Shown here piece by piece: positions 22,521-39,699 of a stretch of 64,000 nt of DNA; positions within the stretch are counted from its first letter, which is position 1; every line of letters begins with the position of its first letter. The stretch spans positions 62,001-126,000 of the forward strand of contig NZ_VUKE01000003.1 of NCBI RefSeq assembly GCF_009193175.1, read 5' to 3'. The position numbers were made by a program, and so were the translations under genes. Under the pieces are notes generated by a model. It searched no databases. It saw only the letters and a list, made by a program, of their open reading frames with translations, and was not told the origin of the DNA. The stretch is from Georgenia ruanii (GTDB lineage: Bacteria > Actinomycetota > Actinomycetes > Actinomycetales > Actinomycetaceae).

Positions 22521-23258
22521 GTGAGCGAGATCGGCGACGGCGCACCGCTGCTCGCGGGCCTGGTCCCGGACGTGGTCGTGGTCGAGACGTTCACCACCGG
22601 CCCGGCCGCGGCTCTGCCTCCCGAGGAGGCGGCCCTGGTCGCCGCGGCGACCCCGGAGCGGCGCCGCGAGTTCGCCGCGGCACGGTCCTGCGCCCGCCGC
22701 GCCCTGGCCCAGCTGGGCGTGGCGCCGCAGCCGATCCTCCTCGACCGGGACGTCCCGGCGTGGGCCGCCCGCGCGCCGCGGTGGCCCGAGGGCGTCGTCG
22801 GGAGCATGACGCACAGCGACGGCTACCACGCGGCGGCCGTCGCGCGCGCCAGCGTGATCGCCGCCGTCGGTGTCGACGCCGAGCCCAACGAGCCGCTCCC
22901 CGCTGGGGTCCGGGAGCTGGTCACGACCGACGAGGAGCGCGCGCTCCTGGCCCGGCTGTCCGGCACGCGGGCGGACGTGGCCTGGGACCGGCTGGTGTTC
23001 AGCGCGAAGGAGAGCGTGTACAAGGCCTGGTTCCCGCTCACCCGGCGGTGGCTGGACTTCGGCGACTGCCTGGTCCGGCCGGCGCCCGGGGGTACGTTCA
23101 CCGTGGCGCTGCGGATGGCCAGGCCCGCCGCGGGGGGTGCCCGCATCAGCGGGCTCGCCGGGCGGTGGCGCACCGCGCGCCGCGGCGGTCGCGGGTACGT
23201 CGCGACGGCGCTCGCCGTGCCCGCCGCCCCCGGCGCCGGCGGACCGCCCGCCCGCTAG
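22521..23258 (+). CDS. Sfp-type 4'-phosphopantetheinyl transferase
   Basis: A 245-residue enzyme that attaches the coenzyme A arm to carrier-protein serines. Family motifs are visible: VGVDAEPNEPLP (Mg2+-binding Asp/Glu pair, ~116-127) and FSAKESVYKAW (Lys/Glu of the catalytic motif, ~158-168), plus the N-terminal RRREFAAARSCARRAL. It belongs to the EntD-like short class. The GTG start at 22521 gives a normal length; the ribosome site is weak. It lies 4 kb upstream of the only carrier-domain gene in the window, the Pls-like synthetase, which it may activate. That link is inference. Confidence 0.88.
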   Translation: MSEIGDGAPLLAGLVPDVVVVETFTTGPAAALPPEEAALVAAATPERRREFAAARSCARRALAQLGVAPQPILLDRDVPAWAARAPRWPEGVVGSMTHSDGYHAAAVARASVIAAVGVDAEPNEPLPAGVRELVTTDEERALLARLSGTRADVAWDRLVFSAKESVYKAWFPLTRRWLDFGDCLVRPAPGGTFTVALRMARPAAGGARISGLAGRWRTARRGGRGYVATALAVPAAPGAGGPPAR

Positions 23259-23649
23259 CGGCACCGGCAGCGCGGGCCCGGTACGACGCCGTCCGCGCCG
23301 CCCCCACACGACGCGGGCGGACCGGTTCACCTGCCTGACGAATTGTTCAGATTCCTCAGGTTTCACTCAGCCAGGTCCTTCATGGTTCATCGATCGAACG
23401 CCACGAGGCCAGACCGATGACGACCACGGCAAGGACCCCAGCAGCGCCGCGCCGGGCACTCGGCGGCGGACGTGCGCACCGCGTCCGCCAGCTCCTGACC
23501 CGACCGGTCTCCCACCACCGGACGCGCGCGACCCGCCAGCGGCGGCGGGTCGCCGGGGCCGGGGGCGTCCTTGCCGGACCGGCTCGGCAGCACGTCAGGT
23601 CCGAGGACCAGCAACCACATCCGTACTCCGGGACAGCAGAGGAGGGGCC
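23259..23649 (+). promoter_or_regulatory. 391-bp intergenic region with an AT-rich island before the aspartate kinase
   Basis: No convincing gene was found. Positions ~23330-23400 are close to half A+T, far above the surroundings, and contain a CCTGA-N17-TCAGG repeat and GTTCATCGATCGAAC (23385-23399, a GTTC-N7-GAAC inverted repeat). This looks like the promoter/operator region of the aspartate kinase-synthetase operon. A GGAGG ribosome site follows near 23640. No riboswitch was recognised. Confidence 0.45.
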
Positions 23650-24999
23650 GTGTACGGTCGCTCGCCAGGGTTGGAGCCCGACATCACGACGGACGCATGG
23701 GTTCCCGACGCCGCCGTGCGACGGCGCCCGCGCGAAGCCTTGGTCGTGCAGAAGTTTGGCGGGTCCTCGGTCGCCGACCCCGTCAGCATCCGGCGCGTGG
23801 CGCACCGGGTCCTCGAGGCGCGTGCCGCCGGCCGCCGCGTCGTGGTCGTGGTCTCCGCGATGGGCGACACCACCGACGAGCTGCTGGACCTCGCCAACGG
23901 CGTGACGCCGTTCCCGTCCGCACGCGAGCTCGACGTGCTGCTCTCCGCCGGGGAGCGGATCTCCACGGCGCTGCTCGCCCTCGCCCTGACCGATCGGGGG
24001 GTGAGCGCGCGGGCCTTCACCGGTCCGGAGGCGGGCCTCGTGACCGACGGCACCCACGGCAAGGCCCATCTCGTGGACGTCAACCCCCGCCGGATCCGCA
24101 GCTTCCTGCGCCAGGACGGGATCGCCGTCGTCGCCGGATTCCAGGGGGAGTCCCGGTCGACGAAGGAGGTCACGACGCTCGGCCGGGGCGGGTCCGACAT
24201 CACTGCGGTCGCGCTGGCCGCCGCGCTGGGGGCCGCCGAGTGCGAGATCTACACGGACGTCGCCGGCGTCTACTCGGCGGATCCGCGGGTCGTGCCCGCC
24301 GCCCGGAAGATCCCCTCCCTCACGAGCGAGGAGATGCTGGAGCTGGCGGCAGCCGGCGCCAAGGTGCTGCACCCGCGCTGCGTGGAGTACGCCCGCCGCT
24401 TCGGCGTCGTCCTGCACGTCCGGTCGTCCTTCACGCAAGAGCCCGGCACCCTCGTCCTGCCTGACCGACGGAGCGTCCCGGGCGAGCCCGTGGAGCTGGA
24501 GCAACCCATCGTCACCGGGGTGACGGCCGACCCGAACCAGGCGAAGGTCACCGTCACCGGCGTCCCCGACGCGGCCGGTGCCGCGGCCCGGATTTTCCGC
24601 CTCGTCGCCCGCGCCGGCGTCCGCGTCGAGATGATCGTGCAGAACGCCGGCACCCTCGGGTCGGGGCGCACCGACATCTCCTTCACCGTCCCCGCCGAGC
24701 ACGGGCCCGCCGTCGTGAAGCTGCTCCGCGAGGCGCGCGAGCACGTCGGGTTCCTCGCCGTCGACCGCGACGAGGAGATCGCCCTGCTCTCGGTGCGCGG
24801 GTTCGGCATGCGTCAGGGCCACCGCGTCTTCCCCCGTGTGCTCGCGGCACTGGCCCGCGCCGGCGTGAACGTCGAGATGATCTCGGCCTCCGAGTTCCGG
24901 ATCGCCGTGGTCGTCCGGGCCGACGCGCTGGCCCGGGCCGAGGACGCGGTCGGCGAGGCGTTCTCCGCGACGTGGGCGGAGGTGCCGGCGCTCGTGTGA
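23650..24999 (+). CDS. lysC: aspartate kinase
   Basis: A 449-residue aspartokinase making aspartyl-4-phosphate. The kinase domain begins VVQKFGGSSVADP (~34-46) and has GERIST, GRGGSDITAVALAAALGA and EIYTDVAGVYSADPR. Two ACT regulatory domains follow (~295-445). About 30 extra residues precede the usual start, from the GTG with a GGAGG site. In ACT1, the segment QNAGTLGSGRTDISF has Gly where Corynebacterium LysC has feedback-critical Ser301. It lies 81 bp upstream of a diaminobutyrate aminotransferase, so it probably feeds aspartate semialdehyde into that pathway rather than (only) lysine and threonine synthesis. Confidence 0.93.
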   Translation: MYGRSPGLEPDITTDAWVPDAAVRRRPREALVVQKFGGSSVADPVSIRRVAHRVLEARAAGRRVVVVVSAMGDTTDELLDLANGVTPFPSARELDVLLSAGERISTALLALALTDRGVSARAFTGPEAGLVTDGTHGKAHLVDVNPRRIRSFLRQDGIAVVAGFQGESRSTKEVTTLGRGGSDITAVALAAALGAAECEIYTDVAGVYSADPRVVPAARKIPSLTSEEMLELAAAGAKVLHPRCVEYARRFGVVLHVRSSFTQEPGTLVLPDRRSVPGEPVELEQPIVTGVTADPNQAKVTVTGVPDAAGAAARIFRLVARAGVRVEMIVQNAGTLGSGRTDISFTVPAEHGPAVVKLLREAREHVGFLAVDRDEEIALLSVRGFGMRQGHRVFPRVLAALARAGVNVEMISASEFRIAVVVRADALARAEDAVGEAFSATWAEVPALV

Positions 25000-25080
25000 C
25001 CAGATGTGCGCGCCCGGGCGGCGCGCGTCCTCGGCGGGTGCCGCACCATCCCGCCCCCTCGATGACGGAGGTCGATCCGC

Positions 25081-26496
25081 GTGGCAATCCAGCCCCTGAC
25101 CCTGCCCGTTCCCACCTCACCCCCGGCCCTGACCGAGGAGGGCTTCGCCGGCCCGATGGTCGCCGGCGACCTTCCCGGTCCCCGCTCCCGCGTCCTGCTC
25201 GAGCGTCAGGAGCAGCGCGAGTCCAACGCGCGCACGTACCCGCGCCACCTCCCCATCGCCATCGCGGACGCGCGGGGCTCGCTGGTCCGCGACGTCGACG
25301 GCAACGTCTTCATCGACTTCCTCGCCGGCGCCGGGGTGCTCTCCCTCGGGCACAACCACCCCGAGCTCGTGCGCGTGGCGGCCCGCCAGCTGGAGATCTT
25401 CACCCACGGCCTGGACCTGCCCACCCCCGCGAAGGACGACTTCGTCACCGCCCAGCTCTCCATGCTCCCCGCCGCGCTGAAGGACCGGATGAAGATCCAC
25501 TTCTGCGGCCCCACCGGGGCGAACGCGGTCGAGGCGGCCATCAAGCTGTGCAAGACCGCCACCGGCCGGGACGACATCGTCAGCTTCGCCGGCGGCTTCC
25601 ACGGCAGCACCGCCGCCGCCATGGCGGTGACCGGGCTCGTCGAGCAGAAGGCGCCGGTGGGCGGCGGCATGCCGGGCGTCCACTTCTTCCCCTACTCCTA
25701 CTGCGCCCGCTGCCCGCTGGGGCTGAGCAAGGAGTCCTCCGGCACCCGGTGCGCCCACTACCTCGAGAACGCGCTCACCGACCCCCTCGGCGGCATCCCG
25801 TTGCCCGCCGCGGTGATCATGGAGATGGTCCAGGGCGAGGGCGGCGTCATCCCCGCCACGTACGAGTTCGCCCAGCGGGTGCGCCGCCTCACCCGGGAGC
25901 TCGGCATCCCCCTCATCGTCGACGAGGTCCAGACCGGTTGCGGCCGCACCGGGACCTGGTTCGCGTTCGAGCAGTACGACATCGAGCCGGACGTCATCGT
26001 CGCGTCCAAGGCGCTCAGCGGCATCGGCACGCCGGTCGCCGTGATCCTGTACGACAAGGAGCTCGACCGCTGGGCCCCCGGCGCGCACATCGGCACGTTC
26101 CGCGGGAACCAGCTGGCCTTCGCCACCGGCGCGGCCGCGGTCGAGATCGTGCGCCGGGACCGGGTGCTGGAGAACGTGCGGGAGCGGGGCGCGCAGGTCG
26201 CCGCGCTGCTGACGCCGCTGGAGACCCTTGACTGGGTGCTGGAGGTGCGCGGCCGGGGCTTGATGTGGGGCATCGAGCTCGTCCACCCCGGCACCGGCCG
26301 CCCGGACGGCGAGCTGGCCGAGGCGGTCCAGGCCGAGGCACTGCGCCACGGCGTCATCGTGGAGACCGGCGGCCGGGACGGCTGCGTCGTCCGGCTCCTG
26401 CCACCGCTGAATGTCACGGAGGACCACGTCGCCGCGGCCTGCGGCGTGCTCGTCGACGCCGTCAGCGCCGTCGGGGAGCAGGGGAGGGCTGCATGA
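25081..26496 (+). CDS. dat: L-2,4-diaminobutyrate:2-oxoglutarate 4-aminotransferase
   Basis: A 471-residue class III PLP aminotransferase. Marks: NVFIDFLAGAGVLSLGHNHP, FCGPTGANAVEAAIKLCKTATGR, SFAGGFHGSTAAAMAVTG, the cofactor Asp in PLIVDEVQTGCGRTG and the PLP lysine Lys310 in VASKALSGIGTPVAV. Pattern and length fit the Dat/PvdH branch that forms L-2,4-diaminobutyrate from aspartate semialdehyde and glutamate. EctB, the ectoine enzyme, is the close alternative, but no ectA or ectC is present. GGAGG is 9 bases before the GTG. Its stop overlaps the start of the synthetase (ATGA), so the two are translationally coupled. Confidence 0.88.
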   Translation: MAIQPLTLPVPTSPPALTEEGFAGPMVAGDLPGPRSRVLLERQEQRESNARTYPRHLPIAIADARGSLVRDVDGNVFIDFLAGAGVLSLGHNHPELVRVAARQLEIFTHGLDLPTPAKDDFVTAQLSMLPAALKDRMKIHFCGPTGANAVEAAIKLCKTATGRDDIVSFAGGFHGSTAAAMAVTGLVEQKAPVGGGMPGVHFFPYSYCARCPLGLSKESSGTRCAHYLENALTDPLGGIPLPAAVIMEMVQGEGGVIPATYEFAQRVRRLTRELGIPLIVDEVQTGCGRTGTWFAFEQYDIEPDVIVASKALSGIGTPVAVILYDKELDRWAPGAHIGTFRGNQLAFATGAAAVEIVRRDRVLENVRERGAQVAALLTPLETLDWVLEVRGRGLMWGIELVHPGTGRPDGELAEAVQAEALRHGVIVETGGRDGCVVRLLPPLNVTEDHVAAACGVLVDAVSAVGEQGRAA

Positions 26497-29400
26497 CCAC
26501 GACCCGAACCGAGGTCGACCTGCTCGGGCCGGTGCTCGTGCCGCGGGCGGACCGGACCTTGCGGTGGCGCCCGGGGGAGCGGATGGAGTCGCTGTTCGAG
26601 GAGACGTGCGACCGGCTCCGCCGTCCGGACGGGTCCAGCCCGCTGGCGGTGGACGCCCCCGAGGAGGCGCTCACCTACGACGAGCTCGACCGGCGCGCCA
26701 ACGGCCTGGCCCGCTACCTGCTCGCCGGGGGCACCCGGCCCGGGGACCGGGTGGCCCTGCTCCTCGACCACGCCGTGAGCGCCTACACCGCGATGCTGGC
26801 GGTGCTGAAGCTGCGGGCCGCCTACGTCCCGCTCGACGCCGGGTTTCCCGACGACCGGATCGACTACATCGTCGCCGACGCCGGCGCGACGACCGTGCTG
26901 ACCGTCTCCCACCTGCGGGAACGCCTGACACGGACCGGCGCCCGGGTGGTCTGCCTGGACGAGGCGGCCCCCGCGCTGGCCACCGCCGAGGACTCCCGCC
27001 TCCAGCCCGGGCCGGCCGGGGGAGCGGCCGAGGAGCTCGCCTACATCATCTACACGTCCGGGTCGACCGGGCGGCCCAAGGGCGTCGCCGTCGAGCACGC
27101 GAGCATCTGCAACTTCGTGCGCGTGGCGGCCGAGGTCTACGGCTACGACCCGACCGACCGGGTCTACCAGGGCATGACGATCGCCTTCGACTTCTCCGTC
27201 GAGGAGATCTGGGTGCCGTGGATGGTGGGGGCCACCCTCGTGCCGCGGCCCCAGGGGGGCAGCCTGCTCGGCCTCGAGCTCGCGACCTTCCTGCGCGAGC
27301 GCCGGGTCACGGCCATGTGCTGCGTGCCGACCCTGCTGGCCACGCTCGAGGAGGACCTGCCCGAGCTGCGGTTCCTGCTGGTCTCCGGCGAGGCGTGCCC
27401 GCGCGACCTCATCGTGCGCTGGCACCGGGACGGGCGCCGGTTCCTCAACGTCTACGGCCCTACCGAGGCGACCGTGACGGCGACGTGGGACGTGGTCGAC
27501 CCGGACGAGCCGGTCACCCTCGGCGTCCCGCTGCCCACGTACTCCGCGGTCATCCTCCACCCCGAGGAGGCCCGCGCCCTGCCGCCGGGCGAGATGGGCG
27601 AGATCGGCATCGCCGGGGTGGGGCTGGCCCGCGGGTATGTCGGCCGGGACGACCTGACGCGCAAGGCGTTCATCCCCGACTTCCTCGGGATGCCGGACAA
27701 CCCGACGGGACGGATCTACCGCACCGGGGACCTCGGCCGCCTCGACGAGCACGGGCGGATCGAGTACCACGGCCGCATCGACACCCAGGTGAAGGTCCGG
27801 GGCTACCGGATCGAGCTGTCCGAGATCGAGTCCGTGCTGCTGCAGGCCCCCGGGGTGGCCCAGGCGGTGGTCTCCACCCACGAGCCGCGGCCCGGCGTGG
27901 TGGAACTGGCCGCCTACTACACGGCGCGCCGGGACGCTCCCGCCGCCGAGGATGAGCTGGTGCGGCGCCTGCGCGAGCGGCTGCCCGCGTACATGGTGCC
28001 CGCCTACCTCGAGCGGCTCGAGACGATCCCGATGCTGCCCAGCGGCAAGGCGGACCGCAAGAGCCTGCCGCCGCCGACCCGGCGCGGTGCCCCCGAGGGA
28101 GACGTCGTGCCGCCGGCGACCCCCACCGAGGAGGCGCTCGCGCGCGAGCTCGCCGAGGTCCTCGGCCTCGACCGGGTCTCGGTCGAGGCGCACTTCTTCG
28201 AGGACCTCGGGCTCAACTCCCTGCTGCTGGCCCACTTCGCGGCGCGGGTCCGCCAGCACACCACCCTCCCGCCGCTGGCCATCCAGGACCTCTACCAGCA
28301 CCCGACCGTGCGGCAGCTGGCCGAGGTCTCCGACGCGGCGGCGGAGGACGCCACCGACCTTGCCGACGCCGCCGAGGAACCGGAGCCCGTGGCCCAGGTG
28401 GGCGCGGGGGCGTTCGTGCTGTGCGGGGCCCTGCAGACCGCCCTCGTGCTGGCGTACTCCTACCTCCTCGCGCTCGGGGCCGTCGTCGGGTACAACTGGG
28501 TCGCCGCGGGCACCGGGCTCGTGGACATGTGGGTCCGCTCGGTGAGCTTCGGGATGGGCACCGTCCTGGCGACCGCCCTGGTCCCGGTCGCGCTGAAGTG
28601 GCTGCTGGTGGGGCGCTGGACCGAGGGAGAGCTCCCGGTCTGGAGCCTGCGGTACGTGCGCTTCTGGTTCCTCAAGGCCACGCTGACGATCAACCCGATG
28701 CGGTTCTTCGTCGCCACACCGCTCTATCCGCTCTACCTGCGCGCGCTCGGCGCCCACATCGGCCGGGACGTGACGATCCTGACGACGGCGCCCGTGGGCT
28801 GCCCCGACCTGCTCACCGTCGGTGACCGCACGGTCATCCGCAAGGACACCGACGTGCGGTGCTACCGCGCCGAGGCCGGGCGCATCCAGACCGGGCGCGT
28901 CACGATCGGCCGCGACGTCCTCGTGGGCGAGCATTCCGTCATCGAGATCGGCACGGAGATGGGCGACCGGTCCCAGCTCGGGCACACCTCCTCCTTGCAC
29001 CGCGGTCAGCGGGTGCCGGCCGGGGAGCACTGGCACGGGTCACCGGCCCGCCGCACCGCCACGGACTACGACGTCGTCCCGCCCGTGCCCCGCGGTGCCG
29101 GCCGGCGCGCGGCCTACGGCGTCATGGTGGTGCTCAACCGCCTCGGGCTGGTCGCCCCCGTCGGGTTCCTGCTCCTCGCGATGGGGGGGACGAACTTCTA
29201 CGCCTACGCCAACCTCGGGCACATCCAGGCGAACCGTGCGGAGTTCTGGGTCGTGCTGCTCGTCGCCGCCACGGTGCTGTACTTCGGCGGGCTCGCCGCG
29301 ATGCTGGTCGCGGTGGTGACCGTGCCCCGGCTGCTGAGCAGGTTCGTGGTCCCTGGGAGGACCTACCCGCTGTACGGCTTCGCCTACGCCGCGCACCGGG

Positions 29401-30557
29401 CCGTCTGGCGGCTGACCAACAACCGGTTCCTCATGCGGATCTCCGGCGACAGCTCGCTGGTCGTCCACTACCTCCGCCTGCTCGGCTACCACCAGCCCGG
29501 GCTGGTGCAGACCGGCTCGAACTTCGGCGTCGCGCTCCAGCACGTCAACCCGCACCTGACGGTCATCGGGTCGGGGACCATGATCTCGGACGCGCTGTCC
29601 GTCATGAATGCCGACTACTCCAGCACCTCCTTCCGGGTGAGCACCGCCGCCATCGGGGCCAGGAACTTCCTCGGGAACAACATCAACTTCCCGGCCGGCG
29701 CCCGCGTGGGGGACAACTGCCTCCTGGCGACGAAGGTCATGGTGCCGGTCGACGGGCCGCTCCGGGAGGGCGTCGGGCTCCTGGGCTCGCCCCCGTTCGA
29801 GATCCCGCGCACGGTCGACCGCGACCGGTCCTTCGACGACCGCCGCACCCCCGAGGGGCTGGCCGCCGCGCTGCCGGGGAAGAACCGGCACAACGCCGGC
29901 ACGCTCGCGCTGTACCTGCTCGCCCAGTGGGTGCGGATGGTCCTCGCCCTCCTGGCCATCGCCGTGGGCGCGGGCACGGCGGACGACGTCGGCGCGCTTG
30001 CCGTCGTGGGCGCCGGCGTCGCCCTCGTGCTGTTCACCGTCGGGTCCTCGGTCCTGCTGGAGAACGCCTCCCGCCGGTTCCGCCCCCTCGAGCCGCTCTT
30101 CTGCTCCATCTACGACGCGCGCTTCTGGCGGCACGAGCGCCACTGGAAGTTTTTCGGCGAGAGCGCGGCGATCTTCAACGGCACACCGTTCAAGCCTCTG
30201 GTGTGGCGACTCCTCGGGGTCCGGATCGGCCGCCGGGTCTTCGACGACGGCGCCGGCATCGTCGAAAAGACCCTCGTCAGCATCGGCGACCGTGCCACGC
30301 TCAACGCGGGCAGCGACATCCAGTGCCACTCGATGGAGGACGGGGCGTTCAAGATGGAGGCCATCGAGATCGGTCCGGACACCACTCTCGGCGTGCGCGC
30401 CTTCGTCCACTACGGCGTGACCCTCGAGCGCGGGGCGACACTGGCCGCCGACTCCTTCCTCATGAAGGGCACGGACGTGCCGGAGGGCACCCGCTACGGC
30501 GGCAACCCGGCGCGCCCGCTCAGCCGCATGCCGGTCCCGGCCCAGCGGCGAGCTTGA
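26493..30557 (+). CDS. Pls-type poly(amino acid) synthetase, probably poly(diaminobutyric acid)
   Basis: A 1354-residue membrane NRPS with the domain order of epsilon-poly-L-lysine synthetase. Adenylation domain ~30-525: IIYTSGSTGRPKG (~186), NVYGPTE (~320), GRIDTQVKVRGYR and catalytic Lys519 in SGKADRK. Carrier domain ~545-610 with phosphopantetheine site Ser576 in LGLNSLL. Then three hexapeptide-repeat (acetyltransferase-like) domains (~750-860, ~1010-1100, ~1240-1345), each preceded by paired membrane helices (from ~640, ~875 and ~1140). In the known enzyme these tandem domains form isopeptide bonds iteratively and pass the chain out. My reading of the substrate pocket is D-F-E-C-L-S-V-V; the Glu suits a basic side chain. 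Coupling to dat makes diaminobutyrate the likely monomer. Confidence 0.9.
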   Translation: MTTTRTEVDLLGPVLVPRADRTLRWRPGERMESLFEETCDRLRRPDGSSPLAVDAPEEALTYDELDRRANGLARYLLAGGTRPGDRVALLLDHAVSAYTAMLAVLKLRAAYVPLDAGFPDDRIDYIVADAGATTVLTVSHLRERLTRTGARVVCLDEAAPALATAEDSRLQPGPAGGAAEELAYIIYTSGSTGRPKGVAVEHASICNFVRVAAEVYGYDPTDRVYQGMTIAFDFSVEEIWVPWMVGATLVPRPQGGSLLGLELATFLRERRVTAMCCVPTLLATLEEDLPELRFLLVSGEACPRDLIVRWHRDGRRFLNVYGPTEATVTATWDVVDPDEPVTLGVPLPTYSAVILHPEEARALPPGEMGEIGIAGVGLARGYVGRDDLTRKAFIPDFLGMPDNPTGRIYRTGDLGRLDEHGRIEYHGRIDTQVKVRGYRIELSEIESVLLQAPGVAQAVVSTHEPRPGVVELAAYYTARRDAPAAEDELVRRLRERLPAYMVPAYLERLETIPMLPSGKADRKSLPPPTRRGAPEGDVVPPATPTEEALARELAEVLGLDRVSVEAHFFEDLGLNSLLLAHFAARVRQHTTLPPLAIQDLYQHPTVRQLAEVSDAAAEDATDLADAAEEPEPVAQVGAGAFVLCGALQTALVLAYSYLLALGAVVGYNWVAAGTGLVDMWVRSVSFGMGTVLATALVPVALKWLLVGRWTEGELPVWSLRYVRFWFLKATLTINPMRFFVATPLYPLYLRALGAHIGRDVTILTTAPVGCPDLLTVGDRTVIRKDTDVRCYRAEAGRIQTGRVTIGRDVLVGEHSVIEIGTEMGDRSQLGHTSSLHRGQRVPAGEHWHGSPARRTATDYDVVPPVPRGAGRRAAYGVMVVLNRLGLVAPVGFLLLAMGGTNFYAYANLGHIQANRAEFWVVLLVAATVLYFGGLAAMLVAVVTVPRLLSRFVVPGRTYPLYGFAYAAHRAVWRLTNNRFLMRISGDSSLVVHYLRLLGYHQPGLVQTGSNFGVALQHVNPHLTVIGSGTMISDALSVMNADYSSTSFRVSTAAIGARNFLGNNINFPAGARVGDNCLLATKVMVPVDGPLREGVGLLGSPPFEIPRTVDRDRSFDDRRTPEGLAAALPGKNRHNAGTLALYLLAQWVRMVLALLAIAVGAGTADDVGALAVVGAGVALVLFTVGSSVLLENASRRFRPLEPLFCSIYDARFWRHERHWKFFGESAAIFNGTPFKPLVWRLLGVRIGRRVFDDGAGIVEKTLVSIGDRATLNAGSDIQCHSMEDGAFKMEAIEIGPDTTLGVRAFVHYGVTLERGATLAADSFLMKGTDVPEGTRYGGNPARPLSRMPVPAQRRA

Positions 30558-31207
30558 TGCGCCGACGTGGGCTGCTGGCCGCCGTCGTGCTGATCGGTGC
30601 GGCGTGCGTGTGCCGCTGCTCCACGACCCCGTCCGAGCAACCGTGGACCGACACGGCCCCGACAGCCTGCGAGGCGCCCGTGACCGCGACCCAGACCGAC
30701 GTGGACCCCAAGGACTCACCGGAGAAGCCGTGGCGACGCGAGGGCGACGCCAAGGTCCGGGTGGTCTTCGAGACGCACGCGCTCTCGGACCGCTACCGGC
30801 AGATGGTGACCCGGGCGGCCGACATCTGGTCCGCCTCGCCGTGCATCGCGGCCGTCGCCGCCGACCGGTGCGCCGAGGGCGACAACTGCGTCCGGGTGGT
30901 GGAGCAGAAGGCGGACGGACGCTCCACCGACGGCGAGTTCAAGGGGAAGGACGGGAAGAAGTACCGGCACGGCGGCAAGATCACCCTCTACACCGCCCTG
31001 CTGGACCGGAACACCGACCAGGGCGCCCTGGCGACGGTCGTCCACGAGATGGGCCACGCCCTCGGGCTGGTGCACCGTCTCGACACCGCCTCGGTGATGA
31101 ACTCCCACACGGACCAGCACACCAACCCCATCCCGGACGCCACCGACTTCGCCAATCTCGCCGTCATCTACGGGCGGGAGGGGCCGGCTCAGAGCGCCTT
31201 GGCGTAG
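30557..31207 (+). CDS. exported zincin-type metallopeptidase (matrixin-like)
   Basis: A 216-residue protein with a signal sequence (MRRRGLLAAVVLIGAAC) and nearby cysteines, possibly lipidated, although the lipobox is imperfect. The zinc motif HEMGHALGLVH (HExxHxxGxxH, His163-His173) is followed by a Met-turn-like SVMN ten residues later, as in metzincins. Two further Cys (SPCIAAV, DRC, DNC region) may form disulfides. Its ATG overlaps the synthetase stop (TGATG), so it is translationally coupled to it. By position it may process, release or degrade the exported polyamine-like polymer, or protect the producer; no direct evidence. Confidence 0.8.
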   Translation: MRRRGLLAAVVLIGAACVCRCSTTPSEQPWTDTAPTACEAPVTATQTDVDPKDSPEKPWRREGDAKVRVVFETHALSDRYRQMVTRAADIWSASPCIAAVAADRCAEGDNCVRVVEQKADGRSTDGEFKGKDGKKYRHGGKITLYTALLDRNTDQGALATVVHEMGHALGLVHRLDTASVMNSHTDQHTNPIPDATDFANLAVIYGREGPAQSALA

Positions 31208-31632
31208 CAGAGGCTCAGGGGGTTGCCCGCGTGCGGCCCGTACGCCTCGACGGCGCGGAAGCCGAGCTTCTCGTACAGCGCGACCGACTCCGGCTGCCGC
31301 ACGCCCGTCTCCAGGAGCAGCGTGCGGATCTCCTGGGCGCGGGCGCGGTCCTCGAGGGTGGCCAGCAGCTGGGTGGCGATGCCGCGGCCGCGGTGCCCGG
31401 GAGCGACGAACATCCGCTTGATCTCCCCGACGCCGGGCGCGTAGGGCACGAGCGCGACGCAACCCGCCGCCTCGCCCTCGACATCGGCGAGGAGGAACCG
31501 GGCGCGCGGGTCGAGCCCGTGGGCCGTGGGGTCCTCGGGGTAGCGGGCGTTCAGCTCGTCCACCGCCGCCACGAGCAGGCGGACCAGCTCCGGGTCCTGC
31601 GGCGGGGGCGAGACGATCAGCACGGCGACCAT
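31189..31632 (-). CDS. GNAT-family N-acetyltransferase
   Basis: A 147-residue GNAT enzyme with the acetyl-CoA loop VAPGHRGRGIATQLL and the VALYEKLGF motif. The start at 31632 (MVAVLIV) places the fold at the N-terminus; an upstream ATG at 31701 would add a 23-residue unstructured tail. It converges on the peptidase gene with a 19-bp overlap of their 3' ends. It resembles general small-molecule or amino-acid acetyltransferases. A role in detoxifying diaminobutyrate or its polymer is conceivable because of its position, but only a guess. Confidence 0.8.
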   Translation of the reverse strand: MVAVLIVSPPPQDPELVRLLVAAVDELNARYPEDPTAHGLDPRARFLLADVEGEAAGCVALVPYAPGVGEIKRMFVAPGHRGRGIATQLLATLEDRARAQEIRTLLLETGVRQPESVALYEKLGFRAVEAYGPHAGNPLSLCYAKAL

Positions 31633-31734
31633 GGTAGGAGCGCCGGACGTGGCCCCGTCCCCGCCGGCCGGGACCGGCCGCCCGAACGTGGGGAAAACCA
31701 TTAGCGCGGCCGGGGGTGATGCCGTAGGCTCCTA

Positions 31735-37094: not shown

Positions 37095-38438
37095 TCACCG
37101 GGCCGTGCTACCCGGGGGGTCGCTCGCCGGCCGGTCCGCGGGGTCGGACCCGATGCGGCGATCGGAGGGGCGGGACTCGGTGCGCGGAACCGCGGGAACA
37201 GGAGCGAGGTGGCCGCCGCGCCGATCCACGCCCGACCGGTCAGGAGCGGCCAGCACCGCGGCCCGCGCCCGGTTCGCCCCCGCCGCCACGAACCGCTCCA
37301 GCGGGCCCTGCCCGAGGTACTTGTGCCACAGGACCGCGAACGGCAGCGCCACGGCCATGATGACGAGGTACCGGGCGAGGAGGTTGTCGCCCATCAGGTC
37401 GGAGTCCGCCAACGGGGTGTGGGCCGAGTAGATGGTCAGCGTCATCGCCCCGGCCACGCCGATCGGCCACAGCAGGCGCCGGGCGGCGGGGAGCTTCGTC
37501 ACCAGCAGGACGGCGCCGAGGACGGCGATCGCGCAGCCCAGGGTGTGCAGCATGTCCAGCGGTGTGCCGGAGTGATGGACGAGGAGGCCGAGCCACCACC
37601 ACGAGGGCACGGTTTCCGAGTCCCAGACCACCTGGTCCGGCGTCGCCCCCGCGCCCGCGGCGAGGAGGTGCTGCAGACCGCCCAGGGGGTAGAGCACCAG
37701 CCACGAGACGAACCAGGTGACGACCGCCGTCGCCAGGCCGCCGACGAGCAGACGGCGGGCCACCGTCGTGGAGGACAGGTTGAGCCGCCCGATGGCCAGG
37801 CCGGCGCAGATGTAGGCCATGTTGGTCACGGCCGGGAAGTCGCCCGTGACGAGCAGCTGCTGGGCGAAGCCGACCGGGTCGGTGAGGGGGGAGGTGAGCG
37901 TGAGCGGGTCGAATGCGGGGCTCCAGCCCAGGGCGTAGGACGCCAGCAGGATCAGCGGGCTGACCACGACCAGTCCGCCGGCGATACCCGCGAGCGTCCG
38001 CGGGCGCAGCCCGACCAGCGGGATGGCGAGGAGGAAGAACGCCCCGTAGTAGGCCAGGATGACCGAGATCGTCGCGACGTAGCCAAGGGCCAGGCCGATG
38101 GCGCCGATCAGCACGGCGCGGGCGGCGATGTTCGCGCGGGCCGCGCGCCGGGCGCGGCCCTGCACGGGGTGCCGCCCGCCGGTGATGAAGGCCAGGCTGA
38201 TGCCCGCGACCATCACGAACAGGGTGGCCGACCGTCCGATCACGGTCATCCCGGCCAGTGACGGCCCGCCGTCGGGTCCCAGCGGGTCGTAGATGTTCGC
38301 GGCCAGCATCGCCACGAGGGCGATCCCGCGGGTGACGTCGACGCCCAGGAACCTCGGCTTGCTCGGCGCGCCGGTGTTCCGGACCGGCGCCGCGACGGCG
38401 GCATCCGGTGCGGCACCCACCTCGTGGTGTGCGGGCAT
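37095..38438 (-). CDS. DUF418/HGSNAT-like multi-pass membrane protein
   Basis: A 447-residue integral membrane protein with about ten helices. The N-terminal GVDVTRGIALVAMLAANIYDP matches the start of the heparan-acetyltransferase/acyltransferase-3-like superfamily (DUF1624), and the C-terminal half (WPIGVAGAMTLTIYSAHTPL) matches DUF418. These proteins are suspected to move or acylate envelope molecules. The start at 38438 is preferred because GAGGTGACGAGG lies just upstream; an ATG at 38471 would add 11 residues but lacks a ribosome site. The C-terminus is a long polar tail. Confidence 0.78.
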   Translation of the reverse strand: MPAHHEVGAAPDAAVAAPVRNTGAPSKPRFLGVDVTRGIALVAMLAANIYDPLGPDGGPSLAGMTVIGRSATLFVMVAGISLAFITGGRHPVQGRARRAARANIAARAVLIGAIGLALGYVATISVILAYYGAFFLLAIPLVGLRPRTLAGIAGGLVVVSPLILLASYALGWSPAFDPLTLTSPLTDPVGFAQQLLVTGDFPAVTNMAYICAGLAIGRLNLSSTTVARRLLVGGLATAVVTWFVSWLVLYPLGGLQHLLAAGAGATPDQVVWDSETVPSWWWLGLLVHHSGTPLDMLHTLGCAIAVLGAVLLVTKLPAARRLLWPIGVAGAMTLTIYSAHTPLADSDLMGDNLLARYLVIMAVALPFAVLWHKYLGQGPLERFVAAGANRARAAVLAAPDRSGVDRRGGHLAPVPAVPRTESRPSDRRIGSDPADRPASDPPGSTAR

Positions 38439-38577
38439 CCTCGTCACCTCGATCTCTTGCTCGTGCGTCATGACGTCGTCGGCGGGGACCGAGAGGTGGC
38501 GCTGCGCCGGCTGGACAGGTGGTCGGATGACGCGCCGCGGTGGTGATGCGGTACGGGATGTGATCCAAGGACCGGAA

Positions 38578-38622
38578 CCTGAAAATGTGCCGAGAGACCG
38601 CCTGAAATGTGCCGAGAGGCCG
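38578..38622. repeat. two head-to-tail 22-23 bp repeats in a promoter region
   Basis: Copies at 38578-38600 and 38601-38622 share CCTGAAA, ATGTGCCGAGAG and a final CCG with only single-base differences. They lie upstream of both the DUF418 gene (minus) and the hydrolase gene (plus), in a 400-bp gene-free stretch, and look like binding sites for a regulator. Confidence 0.6.
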
Positions 38623-38825
38623 GTCGGACCGTGCGGGTGACGCGGAGTTGTCCCGGTGCGCCAGCCCATCTCGCTGCGCTCCCGAGGCGCATCCCGGGCG
38701 CTCACGAGCGCTCCCGAGGTGAGCCCGAGACGGCGTTCCCGACGTGCACCTGCCGGCGTTCCCGAGAGGCACCGGCACCCGGTGCGGGGTGAAGCGCTTG
38801 ACAGGGCGAGCAAGCAGGCTAAGAA

Positions 38826-38845
38826 TATTAGCCAATCGGCTAATA
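38826..38845. promoter_or_regulatory. palindromic TetR-type operator before the hydrolase-tetR operon
   Basis: TATTAGCC-AATC-GGCTAATA is a perfect inverted repeat with 8-bp arms, in an AT-rich patch that contrasts with the GC-rich surroundings. A third GTTAGCC half-site follows at 38848-38854. It lies 30 bases before the hydrolase ATG. The operon encodes a TetR-type repressor, so autoregulation is likely. Confidence 0.75.
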
Positions 38846-38874
38846 GGGTTAGCCATGAGAGCTGGAGGCAGAAA

Positions 38875-39699
38875 ATGGGCGCGACCCAGTGGATCGAGCG
38901 GCCCGGTGGTCGCGTCGCGTACGACGTCGAGGGTGAGGGGCCGCTCGTCGTCCTCGTCCCGGGCATGGGGGACCTGCGCCAGGAGTACCGCTACCTCGGC
39001 CCGCAGCTCCTGGCGGCGGGGTATCGCGTGGCCACCACCGACCTGCGCGGCCACGGCGACTCCGACGCCGGCTTCGACGCCTACGGCGACATCCCCACGG
39101 CCGAGGACGTGCTGGCGCTGGCCGACGCGCTCTCGCCGGACGCTCCGGTGGTGCTCGTCGGCAACTCCATGGGCGCCGCCGCGGTGTGCTGGGCGGCCGC
39201 CGAGCGGCCCGATCGCGTCGCCGGCCTGGTGCTGCTCGGTCCGGTCGCCCGTGACGTCCCGATGTCCCCGGTCCTGGGCTGGCTCATGCGCGCGGCCCTC
39301 ACCCGGCCGTGGGGACCCGCCGTCTGGCCCGCCTACCAGCAGTCGCTCTTCGCCGGGCGCCCCCCGGCCGACCACGCCACCCACCGCGCCCGGATCCGGG
39401 CCTCGTTGCGCGACCCCGCGCGCTGGCGGGCGTTCCGGGCCACCGTCACCACGTTGACCCACGCCCCCGTCGCGGCCCGGCTGGGCGAGATCGGCGCGCC
39501 GGCCCTGGTGGTCATGGGCGGGAAGGACCCGGACTTCAAGGACCCCGCGGCCGAGGCGGCGTGGCTGGGCGAGACGCTCGGCGCCGAGGTGCTCGTGCGT
39601 CCCGCCTCGGGCCACTATCCCCACGCCGACGACCCGACGGCGGTCGGCCCCGCCGTCACCGCGTTCCTGGCCCGCCTGGCACTGCGCGCCGATGCCTAG
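38875..39699 (+). CDS. alpha/beta hydrolase
   Basis: A 274-residue hydrolase with the HGxG-like PGMGDLRQEYRYL, a TTDLRGHGDSD strand-loop, nucleophile elbow VGNSMGAAA (Ser), an acid in MGGKDPDF and a histidine in SGHYPHAD. It resembles haloalkane-dehalogenase/peroxidase-like enzymes; the substrate is unknown. GGAGG is 7 bases before the ATG. It overlaps the TetR gene by 8 bp and is preceded by the palindromic operator, so it is probably induced by a ligand of that repressor. Confidence 0.88.
   Translation: MGATQWIERPGGRVAYDVEGEGPLVVLVPGMGDLRQEYRYLGPQLLAAGYRVATTDLRGHGDSDAGFDAYGDIPTAEDVLALADALSPDAPVVLVGNSMGAAAVCWAAAERPDRVAGLVLLGPVARDVPMSPVLGWLMRAALTRPWGPAVWPAYQQSLFAGRPPADHATHRARIRASLRDPARWRAFRATVTTLTHAPVAARLGEIGAPALVVMGGKDPDFKDPAAEAAWLGETLGAEVLVRPASGHYPHADDPTAVGPAVTAFLARLALRADA

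Follow-up and report, generated by a model that had tools for sequence, protein, structure and literature searches.

A predicted gamma-poly-L-diaminobutyric acid cluster with a coupled metalloprotease gene in Georgenia ruanii

Described cationic homopolymer systems and the Georgenia cluster

Cationic isopeptides serve as preservatives and have attracted study as antivirals and as carriers that penetrate cells; what they do in nature is described as unclear (PMC9606270). The described systems closest to the one considered here, a five-gene cluster of the actinobacterium Georgenia ruanii, polymerise 2,4-diaminobutyric acid (Dab). An ask-dat-pldA context is given for gamma-poly-L-Dab in Streptomyces celluloflavus (figure legend, PMC8117764), and a pddA-pddB cluster for gamma-poly-D-Dab in Streptoalloteichus hindustanus (PMC8225329). 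The Georgenia cluster lies in a stretch of 64,000 nucleotides (hereafter the window, G000:C30:62001-126000) of a draft assembly of 4.42 Mb in 36 contigs. Five successive genes, all read from the plus strand, encode a phosphopantetheinyl transferase (PPTase), an aspartate kinase (ask), a Dab transaminase (dat), a synthetase of the Pls/PosA family and a metalloprotease. Judged from its sequence, the cluster probably makes gamma-poly-L-Dab.

The core of the cluster is of a known kind, since both the ask-dat-synthetase arrangement of Streptomyces and the poly-D-Dab system of Streptoalloteichus are published. In S. celluloflavus, ask, dat and a Pls-family synthetase gene likewise stand together, and no racemase is named for that locus; Georgenia differs in the organism, in a metalloprotease gene overlapping that of the synthetase and in the upstream PPTase gene. 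PddA of Streptoalloteichus is a Dab-polymerising single-module membrane synthetase (PMC8225329), as is predicted for the Georgenia enzyme, but in Georgenia no gene for a DapF-like Dab racemase is coupled to the synthetase. The same architecture recurs in Pls of Streptomyces albulus and Corynebacterium variabile, where the operon holds a peptidase gene too (PMC8117764). In contrast to Pls, the adenylation pocket in Georgenia has Phe instead of Ala at position 2 and is not of the DAESIGTVVK type; in PDB chain 7wew, the adenylation domain of S. albulus Pls, the pocket reads D-A-E-S-I-G-T-V-V by eye in the alignment. The delta-poly-L-ornithine synthetase PosA also belongs to TIGR02353 and keeps the pocket Asp and Glu, but its pocket is DMEHNGTVSK (PMC10522769) whereas that of Georgenia is DFECLSVVTK. 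The Georgenia peptidase, being of matrixin type, is set apart by description from the polylysine peptidase PldII.

The initial annotation of this DNA had presented the cluster as one from a non-streptomycete host, which holds; it is less novel than was implied, given poly-D-Dab in Streptoalloteichus (PMC8225329), relatives of the synthetase in 14 named genera and others on Paenarthrobacter and Skermanella plasmids. Within the literature and genomes searched, what is new is the host and the link with a protease. A literature search that was short on subscription journals turned up no publication describing a poly-Dab cluster in Georgenia or the association of such a synthetase with this protease.

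Substrate and product

The dat product (25081..26496, plus strand, GTG start) scores 458.2 bits against TIGR00709, the L-2,4-diaminobutyrate:2-oxoglutarate transaminase model, with a cut-off of 401.6, and its gene is the sole place in the genome above that cut-off. Two other assignments were tried and rejected: an ectoine enzyme of EctB type (TIGR02407 368.0 bits, under the cut-off of 552.2), and an enzyme of ornithine or gamma-aminobutyric acid metabolism, the next-best homologue in the genome being 38% identical and below the dat cut-off.

Forty-five named relatives of the synthetase (47-83% identity, 14 named genera) were compared. A Dat-type gene stands beside 20 of them, an EctB-type gene beside 14 and an SbnA gene beside one, the flanks of the other ten holding none. 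Dat-type neighbours are 67-89% identical to the window dat and EctB-type ones 36-41%; all four EctB-type proteins scored exceed the EctB cut-off, while the single Dat-type relative scored falls below it. In the 34 loci with either type, 0 to 3.9 kb separate transaminase and synthetase, and the distance is below 2 kb in 32. Moreover, a gene annotated ectB lies directly 5' of the synthetase on both Skermanella plasmids. No ectoine genes were recognised by Pfam among ten neighbour genes, several of them flanking EctB-type genes, in flanks that were partly scored and where several short genes had no match.

On the synthetase tree (57 rows), the Dat or EctB state changes at least seven times, and grouping the 14 EctB-linked rows in one clade apart from the 20 Dat-linked ones is rejected (p-AU 7.4e-5). 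The tree was built quickly and without a mixture model, with long branches flagged for L062 and L009 and with L075, L074 and L023 omitted. In three Pseudonocardia loci (L053, L058 and L063) the synthetase frame continues without a stop, via a proline-rich linker, into Dat, an apparent natural fusion; the corresponding region of L076 is broken by Ns. That two types of Dab transaminase have been drawn to one synthetase is the strongest argument for Dab. Furthermore, genes above the dat cut-off were found elsewhere in all nine genomes searched (eight of the ten transaminase-less relatives and the SbnA-linked L064; L062, on a short contig, and the fragment L074 were left out), against 12 of 100 genomes in a sample of the phylum, this genome included. 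The contrast is only indicative, because the phylum sample is taxonomically wider than the nine.

The adenylation domain (about residues 55-519, 26655..28049, plus strand, by Pfam AMP-binding and AMP-binding_C) points the same way. Its pocket code, DFECLSVVTK, is made up of D233, F234, E237, C276, L296, S298, V320, V328, T329 and K519; the ten positions follow the GrsA numbering, and were set by eye against the core motifs, then read by alignment. The Asp1 and Glu3 expected for a diamino acid are present (D233 and E237), this being the conserved pair in cationic homopolymer synthetases (PMC10522769). According to the same source, position 2 is Phe in poly-diaminopropionic acid (poly-Dap) and poly-Dab synthetases, Met in those for ornithine and Ala in those for lysine. 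Among the 45 named relatives, 38 have exactly the pocket of the window, three replace Thr at position 9 by Ser and two, of which one is a fragment, replace Val at position 7 by Ala; L064 reads DFECLAVVS, and the pocket of L075 is unreadable. As a check independent of the search peptide, plasmid records were searched by tblastn, giving 32 records of which nine were fetched. The three best homologues (Paenarthrobacter aurescens TC1, Skermanella rosea and S. mucosa) carry DFECLSVVTK, while five alphaproteobacterial plasmid synthetases (L135-L139) read DFEALGTVTK and that of L140 is unreadable from the matched stretch.

A poly-L-Dap product, with dat and ask serving something else, would share the Phe at position 2, but it appears improbable. 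An SbnA-like gene was found by tblastn neither in the window nor in the flanks of 44 of the 45 relatives, the dat gene overlaps that of the synthetase, and the two kinds of Dab transaminase stand beside 34 of the relatives. The exception, L064 of Pseudonocardia kunmingensis, has an SbnA gene directly 5' of its synthetase (386.9 bits, over 349.95) and a pocket that differs from that of the window, which makes it a candidate poly-Dap or mixed system. Its altered pocket beside SbnA is a hint, from one case, of a Dap signal. A testable substrate rule can thus be offered, in which DFECLSVVTK would indicate Dab and an altered pocket beside SbnA would indicate Dap.

Gamma-poly-D-Dab, as in Streptoalloteichus, has a similarly small probability. 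The gene kinds are the same, and the published pathway differs by the racemase PddB, whose gene is coupled to pddA (PMC8225329). No racemase gene lies between the PPTase and metalloprotease genes of the window, and the single DapF-family gene of the genome is on another contig; since PddB is only weakly similar to DapF, a racemase that has diverged or is of other descent could have escaped notice. With a single dapF in the genome, and so no paralogue to act as racemase, the product is best read as poly-L-Dab.

The whole synthetase (26493..30557, plus strand, 1354 aa), a predicted poly-Dab synthetase of single-module type, scores 649.9 bits against TIGR02353 (Pls/PosA; cut-off 423.1) over residues 644-1340, with AMP-binding and PP-binding domains ahead of that match. 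The carrier domain (residues 548-611, 28134..28325, plus strand, PP-binding 45.2 bits) has its phosphopantetheine Ser576 in LGLNSL, and a membrane and polymerisation region follows (residues 641-1340, 28413..30512, plus strand, by TIGR02353, AlphaFold and Foldseek). An AlphaFold model of residues 640-1354, built with 35 aligned homologues (mean pLDDT 86.3, pTM 0.88), arranges six long hydrophobic helices two by two, with a strand-rich domain after each of the three pairs. Over 19 residues, the hydropathy of these helices peaks at 1.82 to 2.36. Foldseek ranks left-handed hexapeptide acetyltransferases and gamma carbonic anhydrases highest, with 15 matches in all at E <= 0.001. The six membrane helices and three hexapeptide domains described in the initial annotation are thus recovered, and the published Pls architecture agrees with this layout (PMC8117764, PMC10522769). 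In addition, conservation at 41 C-terminal positions extends to 90% or more of 42 relatives, to 7 of 8 Pls-type and to 3 of 4 DFEYN/DFEFN-type proteins, the Pls-type rows being assigned by pocket code and similarity. The C-terminal domains therefore retain residues shared by the poly-Dab-type and Pls clades, where their loss had been named as a reason to doubt the annotation.

The least probable product is not a long free polymer but short oligomers or a conjugate of Dab, such as a surface component modified with it: the C-terminal domains do have a left-handed beta-helix acyltransferase fold, natural roles are left open by a PddB paper and the PosA paper, and product length is not readable from sequence, but the full TIGR02353 architecture is that of known homopolymer-making enzymes.

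Several points weigh against gamma-poly-L-Dab itself. Ten of the 45 named relatives lack a transaminase gene in the examined flank, Phe at position 2 alone does not separate Dab from Dap, and just one Dap-linked relative (L064) is at hand for comparing pockets. The sole argument against the D-enantiomer is that no second DapF-like gene is present. Finally, the search peptide EEIWVPWM, which coincides in part with the A4 core, occurs in 41 of the 45 relatives, and for that reason the uniformity of their pockets is partly a matter of selection. The poly-Dab product proposed initially is nonetheless supported, by the pocket, the Dab transaminase in cis, its replacement by EctB, the Dat fusions and the single asd gene described below.

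Aspartate supply and the proposed pathway

The ask gene (about 23740..24999, plus strand, Pfam AA_kinase), with a start codon that may be TTG 23740 or GTG 23746, is the second of the genome and is 55% identical to the housekeeping ask at G000:C8:44973-46223. The kinase part scores nearly the same in both (AA_kinase 176.2 against 178.2 bits), whereas ACT_9 drops to 77.0 bits from 127.5. An ask gene also occurs in the cluster of 19 synthetase relatives. In nine cluster kinases scored, ACT_9 ranges from 27.1 to 77.0 bits against the 127.5 of the housekeeping enzyme, with the kinase score kept.

The gap between kinase and ACT identity averages 20.2 in 20 cluster enzymes, that of the window included, and 10.1 in 29 ordinary enzymes of the phylum (Mann-Whitney p 1.5e-6, an optimistic value because the cluster enzymes are interrelated and have a lower kinase similarity as well, 56.7 against 62.9). 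Taken alone, the window enzyme, with a gap of about 16 points (63 minus 47), is within the range of ordinary enzymes (-0.6 to 16.5), near its upper edge; just the group of 20 differs. It departs from 18 of 52 conserved ACT columns and from 6 of 104 conserved kinase columns. The ask of S. albulus is reported to be feedback resistant (PMC9205021), and the cluster enzyme is likewise predicted, from its ACT region, to be less feedback-sensitive.

One asd gene of the genome is above the cut-off (C8:46295-47314), directly 3' of the housekeeping ask. Since this single housekeeping asd is encoded elsewhere in the genome, the step missing from the cluster is available, much as the initial annotation had supposed.

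In the proposed pathway, the cluster kinase would phosphorylate aspartate, the enzyme encoded by the housekeeping asd would reduce the phosphorylated form to aspartate semialdehyde and Dat would aminate that to L-Dab. The adenylation domain would then activate L-Dab and load it onto Ser576 of the carrier domain, primed beforehand by the PPTase, and the membrane-embedded hexapeptide domains would attach the loaded residue, cycle after cycle, to a side-chain amine, either that of Dab or one on the chain. The outcome would be a cationic isopeptide at the membrane, with the metalloprotease acting outside the cell on the polymer or on its effects. The genes themselves, their order, the domain layout, the pocket residues and the links between genes in different genomes are observed; substrate, stereochemistry, linkage and the role of the protease are what we infer from them. 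A compact cluster with its own precursor supply would represent an expression-ready route to poly-Dab.

The PPTase of PptT/EntD type (22521..23258, plus strand, Pfam 4PPT_N and ACPS above cut-off) is the likely activator of the carrier domain. PPTase genes also lie near the synthetase relatives of L033, L036, L038, L050, L051, L057 and L070. On the alphaproteobacterial plasmids L136, L137 and L138, a PPTase gene is directly or second 3' of the synthetase. The synthetase start overlaps the end of dat by ATGA, and the metalloprotease start overlaps the synthetase stop by TGATG. The gene order given at the outset (ask, a Dat-type transaminase and a 1354-residue Pls-type synthetase, with the shared ATGA and a PPTase just upstream) was found again with the same families; the set of four genes was incomplete, as the fifth, for the metalloprotease at 30557-31207, had been overlooked. 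In the dat and synthetase frames, G or C fills 94-97% of third codon positions. The window synthetase shares 83% identity with its counterpart in Georgenia thermotolerans (NBRC 104148, locus L033), and a DFECLSVVTK-type synthetase was found in two of the nine genomes searched, which are this one and eight of the same genus.

The metalloprotease, neighbouring genes and other synthetases

The coupled gene (30557..31207, plus strand) encodes a matrixin-type metalloprotease of 216 aa, predicted to be secreted and possibly lipid-anchored. It scores 25.8 bits against PF00413 (Peptidase_M10), just above the cut-off of 24.0, and HEMGHALGLVH at 31043-31075 fits HExxHxxGxxH and is followed by a Met. A model built from four sequences (mean pLDDT 73.9) has as its best Foldseek matches matrix metalloproteinase (MMP) catalytic domains and karilysin, the MMP-1 catalytic fragment matching at E 1.7e-6 (TM 0.48/0.59). 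The N-terminus resembles a signal peptide, and a lipobox-like sequence is, by eye, clearest in L056 and L132.

Searching six-frame translations of 62 loci and the window with a five-member profile gave six places, the five founding members and a new one in L056. They are distributed over the window, L033, L056 (two), L132 and L095. Pseudonocardia sp. OFTM335 (L056) has two tandem synthetases, each with its own upstream divergent matrixin gene; an HGSNAT-like gene is also present in this locus. On the Paenarthrobacter plasmid pTC1 (L132), the matrixin gene is divergent from that of the synthetase, with one small gene between, and L095 holds a copy from a different contig of G. thermotolerans, where the 8 kb examined contain no synthetase. 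Being found with two of the 45 named relatives and one of the nine plasmid loci, the association recurs but is not general. A search of 72,556 plasmid records matched the metalloprotease at E <= 1e-3 solely in the pTC1 copy next to the synthetase, and in 35 related genomes, this one included, the gene occurs solely here and in G. thermotolerans, plus one weak match (E 3e-4).

Peptidases of another family, M28, are encoded near the synthetase in L036, L037, L057, L070 and L072, and PldII is a cell-surface endo-peptidase of polylysine producers (PMC9205021). For these reasons a protective or trimming role is favoured, and the odds that the metalloprotease serves self-protection or trimming of the polymer are about even. 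A broader proposal is tentative, and we hold it to be somewhat less probable than its contrary: a surface matrixin may be dedicated to poly-Dab systems, a rare family travelling with DFECLSVVTK synthetases in three bacterial families and on a conjugative plasmid. It would be the counterpart, possibly unrelated by descent, of the polylysine peptidase, cutting or trimming the isopeptide for self-protection in systems that swap Dat and EctB freely, sometimes fuse Dat, and carry ACT-decayed aspartate kinases bypassing lysine-type feedback. As a recurrent neighbour, the matrixin is a concrete candidate for the means by which producers withstand or shorten poly-Dab.

Convergent with the metalloprotease gene is one for a GNAT N-acetyltransferase (31189..31731, minus strand, Acetyltransf_1 76.3 bits), whose membership of the cluster is doubtful. 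A GNAT gene is directly 3' of the synthetase on two alphaproteobacterial plasmids (L135 and L138), and tblastn at 1e-3 detected no similarity between these and the window GNAT.

The same genome holds a second synthetase (L002, G000:C1:121061-124936, minus strand), with 675.9 bits against TIGR02353, the pocket DAESIGTVIK and 598.5 bits against the S. albulus Pls adenylation domain 7wew. The host may thus make both polylysine and poly-Dab, as far as these two genes indicate; co-production of both polymers is reported for S. celluloflavus (PMC9606270, cited title; PMC8117764, statement). Polylysine-type copies were also seen in the same-genus genomes G001, G005, G006, G007 and G008.

In 396 genomes of the phylum there were four matches at E <= 1e-150, three of them without the adenylation part of the query; no prevalence estimate was drawn from these, because two candidates per genome only were scored. 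Pls-family matches in G183, G216 and G423, and in the plasmid records H32-H37, cover the carrier and terminal domain only, and in the three genomes the frames, 860-946 aa long, point to proteins that would be devoid of an adenylation domain.

A third synthetase clade was met in the kin of Georgenia (L091-L094), with the pockets DFEYNGTVTK and DFEFNGTVTK, and all four of its loci have an HGSNAT-like membrane acyltransferase gene within about 0.4 kb of the synthetase. The window itself encodes an HGSNAT-like membrane acyltransferase at 37095-38990 (minus strand), 6.5 kb from the synthetase and not counted in the cluster, which is 37.6% identical to the one encoded directly 3' of the Brevibacterium synthetase in L057.

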